Under the pieces are notes generated by a model. It searched no databases and was not told the DNA's origin. It saw only the letters and a program-made list of their open reading frames with translations. The translations under genes were made by a program, and so were the position numbers. This document shows positions 61,283 to 63,040 of a DNA stretch of 64,000 nt, piece by piece (the first letter of the stretch is position 1; each line of letters starts with the position of its first letter). The stretch comes from Bacillota bacterium. GTDB taxonomy: Bacteria; Bacillota_I; Bacilli_A; RF39; UBA660. The stretch spans positions 89,951 to 153,950 of the forward strand of contig SVAK01000001.1 of assembly GCA_015059445.1 (NCBI GenBank). The letters are read 5' to 3'.

Positions 61283-61720
61283 TTAATTGTTTTTGTCGAT
61301 TTTTCCTAAAAGATAATCCATGGAATAATGATATTTTTTGGCTAATGCCAAAAGCAAAAGAGTAGGAATTAGATAATTACCATGTTCATATCCAGTCCAG
61401 GTACTTCTGGAAGTATTTAAAATTTTAGCAATCTCAAACTGTGTCAATTTATTCTTTTTACGAAGAATTTTAAGTCTTTCTTTTAAAATATTTTTGTCTA
61501 TTTCAGGCCTAGAATCTTTATATTGTTTTTTATTTGATAATCCCATTGCATAGTCAACTGAGATATTAAAATAATTACATAATTTGTTTAAATGAGTTAT
61601 TGGAATTGTATCTCTTTCAATTTCATAAGAAGTATAAGTGGTTCGATCTATACCTAAAATATTAGCAATGTCTGTCTGTCTTAAGTTATGTTCTTCACGT
61701 ATGCTTCTTAATTGTTCCAT
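61283..61720 (-). CDS. XRE-family regulator with two tandem helix-turn-helix domains
   Basis: 145-residue DNA-binding protein made of two Cro/C1-type domains. The first (1-60) has LRQTDIANILGIDRTTYTSYEIERDTIP and ends FNISVDYAMGLS. The second (78-140) has LTQFEIAKILNTSRSTWTGYEHGNYLIP and ends YHYSMDYLLGK. Such a covalent pseudo-dimer should bind an inverted repeat. A perfect one, TTCGGAC-11-GTCCGAA, lies 66 bases upstream, over the promoter of the divergent RNA. Autoregulation and control of that RNA are likely but inferred. AGAAAGGA is the ribosome site. Confidence 0.88.
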   Translation of the reverse strand: MEQLRSIREEHNLRQTDIANILGIDRTTYTSYEIERDTIPITHLNKLCNYFNISVDYAMGLSNKKQYKDSRPEIDKNILKERLKILRKKNKLTQFEIAKILNTSRSTWTGYEHGNYLIPTLLLLALAKKYHYSMDYLLGKIDKNN

Positions 61721-61785
61721 CCCTATATTCCTTTCTGATGATATTATAAATATTAAAAGATACGAGAAAATAAAATGTGTATATA

Positions 61786-61810
61786 TTCGGACAATTTTCT
61801 TGCGTCCGAA
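61786..61810. promoter_or_regulatory. Inverted-repeat operator between XRE gene and ncRNA
   Basis: TTCGGAC (61786-61792) and GTCCGAA (61804-61810) form a perfect 7-base inverted repeat with an 11-base centre. It covers the -35 of the rightward promoter. The G+C content stands out from the surrounding AT-rich DNA. Confidence 0.65.
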
Positions 61811-61828
61811 ATTTATGTATGCTATACT
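61800..61828 (+). promoter_or_regulatory. Promoter of the structured RNA
   Basis: TTGCGT (61800-61805), a 17-base spacer and TGC-TATACT (-10 at 61823-61828). Start is predicted at about 61835, exactly at the first base of hairpin 1. Confidence 0.78.
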
Positions 61829-61834
61829 TTTTTT

Positions 61835-61951
61835 GTTAAGTAAGAAATTACTTAACGTCTGTGGTCAGATGATAAAGACTTTAAAACATAATCACATCAG
61901 ACATTTGTCGCGTGTCTGATAATTTTTGCAAAAGGGCATAAAGCCCTTTTT
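61835..61951 (+). ncRNA. Candidate structured non-coding RNA, about 117 nt
   Basis: Three hairpins follow the promoter. Hairpin 1 is GTTAAGTAA-GAAA-TTACTTAAC (61835-61856). Hairpin 2 is ATCAGACA-TTTGTCGCG-TGTCTGAT (61896-61920), followed by AATTTTT. Hairpin 3, AAAGGGC-ATAAA-GCCCTTT (61931-61949), with T residues is a standard terminator. GTCAGATG (61864-61871) can pair with CATCAGAC (61895-61902), which would break hairpin 2, and GTCTG at 61857-61861 can also pair with CAGAC. No open frame with a ribosome site is present. It matches no RNA family that I recognise. It occupies the 309-base gap between the XRE gene and rlmN. Confidence 0.65.
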
Positions 61952-62029
61952 ATGTTTGGATTAATAAAATTTGTCAAATAAATAACGTATTTTAGTTCCA
62001 ATTTATTAAATTTATAGTAAAATTAAAGT

Positions 62030-63040
62030 ATGAAGAATTTAATGAGTTTAAGTATTAGTGAATTAGAAAATTATTTTATAAGTATAGGTGAAAAGAAATT
62101 TAAAGCTATACAAGTTTTTGAATGGCTGTATGTACATAAAGAAAAAAATATTAATAATTTTACTAATTTAAAAAAAGAAGTAAGAGATAAGCTAGCTTCG
62201 GATTTTAATTTGGAATTTATTTCAATAAAAAGAAAAGAAGAGGGGCAATTAGTAAAAAAATATTTATTTGAACTAAATGATAATAATTACGTAGAAGCGG
62301 TTTTAATGGAGCACGATTATGGTTTAAGTGTTTGTGTTTCTAGTCAAGTTGGCTGTAATATGGGATGTAAGTTTTGTGAAAGTGGAAGACTAAAAAAAGT
62401 GAGAAACTTAGAAACTTTTGAAATGGTTCAACAAATTATTTTAATTGAGGAAGATATTGGTAAAAAAATTCAAAGTGTAGTGGTTATGGGAATAGGAGAA
62501 CCGTTTGATAACTATGATAATGTTATTAATTTTGTTAAAATTATAAATCATGCCAAAGGTCTTTCAATTGGAGCTAGACATATAACTATCTCTACTTGCG
62601 GATTAGTGCCTAAGATAGAAGAATTCGGTAATCTTCCGCTTCAAGTTAATTTAGCTTTAAGTTTGCATGCATCAAATGATGAAGTTAGAAATAAAATAAT
62701 GCCAGTCAATAAAGCGTATAATATAAGTCAAGTAATGTCAGCTATAAAGAACTATATTAATAAAACTAATAGACGGGTTACTATAGAATATGTTATGCTT
62801 AATATGGTAAATGATAGCATAAATAATGCATTGGAACTTGCTCATATTTTAAAAGGAATGAATGTTTATGTTAACTTAATACCATATAATGAAACAAATA
62901 ATTTAGAATTTAAAAAAAGTGAAAGAATACAAGAATTTAAAGATGCATTATTAAAATGTGGAATTAATGTTACTGTAAGACGGGAATTTGGAGGTAACAT
63001 TAGTGCCGCTTGTGGACAACTTAGAAGTAAAGAGGTGTAA
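62030..63040 (+). CDS. rlmN: 23S rRNA (adenine-2503-C2)/tRNA methyltransferase RlmN
   Basis: 336-residue radical-SAM enzyme that methylates A2503 of 23S rRNA and A37 of some tRNAs. The cluster-binding cysteines are Cys109, Cys113 and Cys116 (GCNMGCKFC). GIGEPFDNYDNV, HITISTCGLVP and LALSLHASNDEVRNKIMP are family motifs. The C-terminal Cys328 in SAACGQL is present. ATG 62030 has no ribosome site and lies just after a TAAAAT -10, so it may be leaderless; an in-frame ATG at 62042 is an alternative. The rlmN-prpC-prkC order matches Bacillus. Confidence 0.95.
   Translation: MKNLMSLSISELENYFISIGEKKFKAIQVFEWLYVHKEKNINNFTNLKKEVRDKLASDFNLEFISIKRKEEGQLVKKYLFELNDNNYVEAVLMEHDYGLSVCVSSQVGCNMGCKFCESGRLKKVRNLETFEMVQQIILIEEDIGKKIQSVVVMGIGEPFDNYDNVINFVKIINHAKGLSIGARHITISTCGLVPKIEEFGNLPLQVNLALSLHASNDEVRNKIMPVNKAYNISQVMSAIKNYINKTNRRVTIEYVMLNMVNDSINNALELAHILKGMNVYVNLIPYNETNNLEFKKSERIQEFKDALLKCGINVTVRREFGGNISAACGQLRSKEV

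Follow-up and report, generated by a model that had tools for sequence, protein, structure and literature searches.

A predicted small RNA of gut Bacilli, divergent from a tandem-HTH XRE regulator, shares a candidate pseudoknot with phage mRNA leaders

Small RNAs with a dedicated regulator have been described in which the regulator gene lies divergent from a discrete small-RNA gene and both use one regulatory region (PMC4423775). Short pseudoknots are in turn known as control elements at the start of messenger RNAs. The translational operator of phage T4 gene 32 is a pseudoknot of ~28 nt at the 5' end, behind which come an A/U-rich stretch and the ribosome-binding site (PMC535899). In the class I preQ1 riboswitch (RF00522) the cytosine that recognises preQ1 lies in L2 beside the 3' P1 strand, and L1 has a U (PMC11625349).

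The locus analysed here lies in a window of 64,000 nucleotides from an uncultured gut bacterium with a genome of 1.02 Mb, which belongs to a family of small-genome Bacilli whose named relatives are metagenome-assembled genomes from rabbit and goat gut. Its layout resembles that of the divergent-regulator small RNAs, as read from sequence alone: a discrete unit, a conserved divergent regulator and a shared site. It differs from them in that the regulator is a tandem-HTH XRE protein and the core is a knot common to phage mRNA leaders, and a base-pairing target was not found here. The phage leaders are like the gene 32 operator in that the ribosome-binding site directly follows a predicted pseudoknot at the 5' end, but they precede many different genes and occur several per phage, whereas the bacterial RNA carries the knot free, with no ribosome-binding site and no gene behind it. 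With preQ1-I the motif has in common a small H-type pseudoknot with a short P1, a 10-12 nt loop, an A-rich tail and P2, and in the leaders the Shine-Dalgarno sequence comes next. The leaders nevertheless have an invariant AAA instead of C before the 3' P1 strand, AG as L1, no link to queuosine genes, unrelated downstream genes and no Rfam match. Membership in the preQ1-I class was rejected because the preQ1-recognising base is absent.

A small-RNA gene and its divergent XRE partner

By its conservation, linkage, operator spacing, motif sharing and P1 and P2 covariation, the segment at 61835-61951 is a discrete, real and conserved small-RNA gene, predicted to be transcribed from its own promoter to its terminator as an RNA of ~117 nt. 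The features of the locus are as follows.

61283..61720, minus strand: tandem-HTH XRE regulator of 145 aa with two Cro/C1-type HTH domains (two HTH_3/HTH_19 in the domain search) and no other domain
61743..61748, minus strand: putative -10 of the XRE promoter (ATTATA on the plus strand, TATAAT on the minus strand), conserved, with no recognisable -35
61776..61793, no strand: conserved 18-bp putative operator TGTGTATATATTCGGACA, an imperfect dyad TGT...ACA at a fixed distance to both promoters
61800..61828, plus strand: RNA promoter, with -35 TTGCGT (61800-61805), a 17-nt spacer ending in TGC and -10 TATACT (61823-61828)
61835..61856, plus strand: 5'-terminal hairpin, a perfect 9 bp with a GAAA loop, its start 7 nt past the -10
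61864..61889, plus strand: conserved core, proposed H-type pseudoknot, with P1 61864-61866/61877-61879, P2 61869-61871/61887-61889 and an A-rich loop 61880-61886
61890..61895, plus strand: conserved single-stranded RRCCAC segment (here AATCAC)
61896..61920, plus strand: variable hairpin 2, its structure kept and its sequence changed in most species
61930..61952, plus strand: intrinsic terminator, AAAAGGGC/GCCCTTTT plus a T run, read from sequence and fold

A sequence-only reading of this DNA had already proposed the promoter, a transcript start exactly at the first hairpin, the strong terminator, the divergent double-HTH XRE gene and a regulated small RNA, and all of these were borne out at or close to the positions given, the start site and the regulated RNA as predictions: own promoter, 5' hairpin, conserved core, terminator, divergent dedicated regulator and conserved site are all in place. 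The RNA folds at -38.4 kcal/mol, compared with -19.7 kcal/mol for shuffled sequences (z -5.9; 0/200). Our first scan covered 38 genomes of one genus of gut Bacilli, with a pattern derived from the earliest relative that could be aligned, and found the core in most of them. Six more of the 38 have it with a loop 2 (L2) of 2-6 nt, and with these included about 31 of the 38 contain the core. Operator, promoter, 5' hairpin, core (GTCAGRTGNWAAAGACNNNAAAACAY), RRCCAC, variable hairpin and terminator make up the architecture common to the genus, and the transcribed part is rich in indels across species. The 5' hairpin is retained with changed sequence at all genus loci except L056 and L068 and is a probable transcript stabiliser. 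In L134 the core is rearranged or replaced and in L135 it is lost, the latter locus retaining the 5' hairpin, ACCAC and the terminator; judged by these two loci the core is not indispensable. The RRCCAC segment is retained even in both of them.

The fast-evolving XRE gene is divergent from the RNA in 23/23 first-round loci, and its products are only 55-79% identical across species whose RNA core is conserved. Since XRE is linked in every one of these loci and rlmN lies directly downstream in only 20 of them, the conserved unit is best described as XRE plus RNA, with XRE, on this linkage, as the dedicated partner of the RNA. The inverted repeat TTCGGAC-11-GTCCGAA over the -35, which had been taken for the operator, proved peculiar to the source genome; the conserved site is instead the 18-mer TGTGTATATATTYGGACA, which surrounds the left half of that repeat. 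This site is near single-copy per genome. It stands 27 nt from the XRE -10 in every locus with XRE-side sequence and 29 nt from the RNA -10 in 29/33 loci (30 in two, 28 in one and 17 in one). Two loci (L131 and L133) have two operator copies, one per promoter, and in genome G226 the XRE and the RNA are found on different contigs (L136 and L148), with one operator copy beside each. From this conservation and spacing, the XRE protein would be expected to bind the 18-bp operator between both promoters and to contact polymerase at one or both of them, and it would then govern both its own expression and the amount of RNA made, the latter by either activation or repression.

Other genera of the family (L006-L033) have tandem-HTH XRE paralogs in great number, 20 or more in genome G097, and these often diverge from genes for membrane or secreted proteins behind a shared AATACGACAAAATNTGATATAAT-like promoter motif; together they look like a set of local switches. 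Genomes G208 and G209 (L145 and L146) have an XRE region of prophage-like character, in which several TCGGACA sites resemble the operator half-site.

A motif shared with phage mRNA leaders

Beyond the genus, the core is found again in the leaders of phage mRNAs, as the motif GUC-AG-RUG-NWAAA-GAC-NNNAAAA-CAY, which spans ~30 bases and usually lies directly 3' of a consensus promoter and just 5' of the Shine-Dalgarno sequence. Scanning 2.9 million viral contigs for the exact core returned two contigs, in which it stands directly before the Shine-Dalgarno sequence and start codon, and a scan with three P1 bases freed on each side plus Shine-Dalgarno context returned the same two, again with GTC/GAC. 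Relaxed patterns led to leaders with other P1 sequences (AAAAG/CTTTT, TAAGAG/CTCTTA and GAC/GTC), and a single phage of 157 kb has three leaders, two with GAG/CTC and one with GGG/CCC. In all, such leaders were seen on no more than some ten contigs, of phage or mobile kind. Most of the loci first examined, to which the promoter tally refers, carry a consensus or near-consensus promoter (TTGACA-17-TATAAT) 16-18 nt before the loop (L077, L151 with three, L152, L155 and L156), which would place the knot at the very start of the mRNA; L123, L124 and L183 show no recognisable promoter of this kind 5' of the leader. PHROGs assignments mark the neighbours of the leaders as phage genes (portal, terminase, major head protein and NrdD), and the genes behind the leaders are diverse and unannotated. 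Short-query blastn against phage records gave chance matches only, and in phages related to one of the leader-bearing phages, among them the Enterococcus EF1 type, the stretches inspected showed no leader that was convincing.

Some observations on these contigs stand by themselves. In L183 and L228 a small gene follows the leader, together with the gene for an anaerobic ribonucleotide reductase (NrdD). A 5-bp P1 core on the viral contig L197 (677-705) has neither a Shine-Dalgarno sequence nor a reading frame behind it and may represent a free-standing phage RNA. One leader-bearing phage has a group I intron near the major head protein gene (L123, 737-1178), and the phage end region L151 (1-12691) is full of degenerate interspersed repeats of 30-40 nt and has many perfect-consensus promoters, only some of them with a pseudoknot leader.

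The pairings of the proposed knot covary. Across eight phage leaders, P1 shows both-sided changes in 4/5 pairs, occurring as GUC/GAC, GAC/GUC, GAG/CUC, GGG/CCC and AAAAG/CUUUU, and P2 (RUG:CAY) is 100% paired, its variable pair being A-U in some leaders and G-C in others. Covariation in this set scored 0.509 against a shuffled mean of 0.170 (0/500), and the score fell away in slid controls. Two pairs of homologous phage genes (L077/L155 and L152/L156) have leaders whose P1 sequences differ from each other and are each self-complementary, that is, compensated. When 61 distinct viral matches were collected blind to P1, eight had a P1 of at least 4 pairs, compared with 1.7 in shuffles (maximum 7). 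Within the genus P2 occurs as AUG-CAU (18), GUG-CAU (7), GUG-CAC (4) and AUG-CAC (0), with p 0.014 uncorrected for relatedness, and the GUG-CAC form requires two changes on the XRE tree. P1 of the genus is only 3 bp and never varies, and its pairing there is therefore read across from the phage leaders. As the sequence-only reading had anticipated for a structured RNA, compensatory changes are thus seen in the 5' hairpin, in hairpin 2 and in P1 and P2 of the phage leaders, those of P1 and P2 indicating an H-type pseudoknot that would form in solution.

A covariance model built from the phage leaders alone (R2, whose E-values are rough) was run blind on the 38 genus genomes and gave 19 matches at E <=0.01, of which 18 are the bacterial RNA and one lies elsewhere (G193:C20). 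On 386 family genomes its sole match in the source genome was the bacterial RNA, at 32.1 bits, and its strongest match was the L077 leader, itself in the model. Run on selected loci, R2 recovered most bacterial copies, and it also found leaders outside its training set (L183/L228 and a second leader in L152); a match within coding sequence (L234) scored as high as the bacterial RNA. Searches of 392 genomes of the phylum and 277 of the class gave no match at 1e-4, but they used strict cut-offs that the source genome's own RNA fails. A second model, R1, gave L077 as its sole convincing match outside the genus in the family search. At the R2 thresholds no convincing copy of the motif apart from this RNA turned up in the genus genomes, so no host mRNA with the knot is evident. 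Rfam matched neither the bacterial RNA nor the phage leaders at gathering or permissive thresholds, which agrees with the initial impression that no riboswitch, 6S, SRP or tmRNA feature is present, and a literature search found the motif described nowhere. Taking sequence, structure and context together, we regard the bacterial RNA and the phage leaders as the same motif, with the confidence that we give to the whole reading below, which is about even; convergence of two short knots could still account for some or all of the likeness.

Several other identities were considered and set aside. A small reading frame MxKTLKH, raised by phage leaders in which RTG and CAY look synonymous, is broken by stops; a stop follows RTG directly in L060, L129, L131 and L137, and the core is thus not a conserved peptide. 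Cas9 exceeded the cut-off in 4/38 genus genomes and is absent from the source genome, which argues against a tracrRNA. A type III toxin-antitoxin RNA was rejected because each RNA gene has one core, not tandem repeats, and no toxin gene follows the terminator; there is no gene between the terminator and rlmN.

Competing explanations and a possible role

We favour the reading of the gene as one for an XRE-controlled, trans-acting small RNA whose working part is the H-type pseudoknot of the phage leaders, and judge it about evenly balanced between right and wrong. Somewhat unlikely, in our estimate, is a conventional base-pairing small RNA whose core and CCAC segment serve as mRNA seeds and whose resemblance to phage leaders is convergent. 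Such an RNA would fit a discrete small-RNA gene beside its own regulator, a long invariant core stretch that is partly unpaired in the minimum-energy fold, and a CCAC that is conserved and single-stranded, but the tolerance of L2 to length (2-6 nt) and the R/Y covariation suit a fold better than a seed, and R2, trained on phage leaders only, recovers the bacterial RNA. Moreover, the recurrent antisense-like match examined as a target, AGATGTTAAAGAATTAAAAAAAT, turned out to be topA coding sequence in sense orientation. The locus might also be a domesticated remnant of phage immunity, in which XRE derives from a CI-like repressor, the promoter from an early lytic promoter and the knot from the first leader, all now in a secondary role. 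The phage-like layout, the prophage-like XRE region with its repeated TCGGACA sites and the abundance of tandem XRE genes in the family are in line with this descent; genus-wide fixed operator spacing and the terminators, on the other hand, point to a selected function and not to a relic. We consider the remnant explanation unlikely, and it accounts for origin more than for function, being compatible with our main reading.

Further down in probability, and in our view quite improbable, comes a ligand-sensing riboswitch in which the knot governs termination at hairpin 2 and the second terminator is a backstop. The preQ1-I-like architecture speaks for it, as does the fact that hairpin 2 is the only terminator in L060 and L067, but the downstream gene is not constant (L037, L049 and L066) and hairpin 2, although its structure is kept in most species, is absent in L043, L051, L130 and L132. 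The upstream segment GTCAGATG (61864-61871) is indeed complementary to CATCAGAC (61895-61902) in the left arm of hairpin 2 at 7/8 positions in this sequence, but other species do not conserve this pairing, nor do all of them have a second terminator, so that the suggestion of a switch-like RNA with two terminators finds no support across the genus. Where the hairpin is of the CAGACAT type, its right arm is in many species also able to pair with the core, some of the pairs being G-U, and a switch may therefore operate in a subset of species. Least credible of all, and rejected, is the idea that the RNA is merely the 5' leader of rlmN. The frequent position of rlmN directly downstream invites it, yet a strong terminator intervenes, the RNA occurs without adjacent rlmN in some species, and rlmN has its own conserved promoter, TATAGTAAAAT, just 5' of its ATG. 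In the window (61996-62032) and at equivalent loci this promoter ends ~8 nt before the ATG, suggesting an rlmN mRNA that is nearly leaderless throughout the genus.

For the trans-acting pseudoknot RNA that we favour, a mechanism can be sketched. On phage messengers the knot would come first, at the 5' end, with the Shine-Dalgarno sequence immediately behind it, a place suited to the control of translation start. In the bacterium the same knot would be set free on an RNA of its own, which is protected by a 5' hairpin, ends in a terminator and has no reading frame or ribosome-binding site. Acting in trans, this RNA could serve as a decoy or effector by offering the knot to whatever reads the phage leaders, for which a protein, a ribosomal factor or a small ligand are candidates. 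On this view the bacterium would produce, under its own dedicated regulator, a free-standing copy of an element by which phages exert control. More tentatively, and with rather less confidence than we place in the reading as a whole, the chromosomal RNA might mimic the phage leader knot and, under its XRE switch, titrate a phage or host factor, thus acting as a decoy on phage translation.

The structured motif described here is absent from Rfam, and leaders of phage mRNAs have it in common with a bacterial gene dedicated to a small RNA. The knot would constitute a new and very small class of regulatory pseudoknot, and the locus would offer a testable case, in uncultured gut bacteria, of a host RNA that copies a phage control element.
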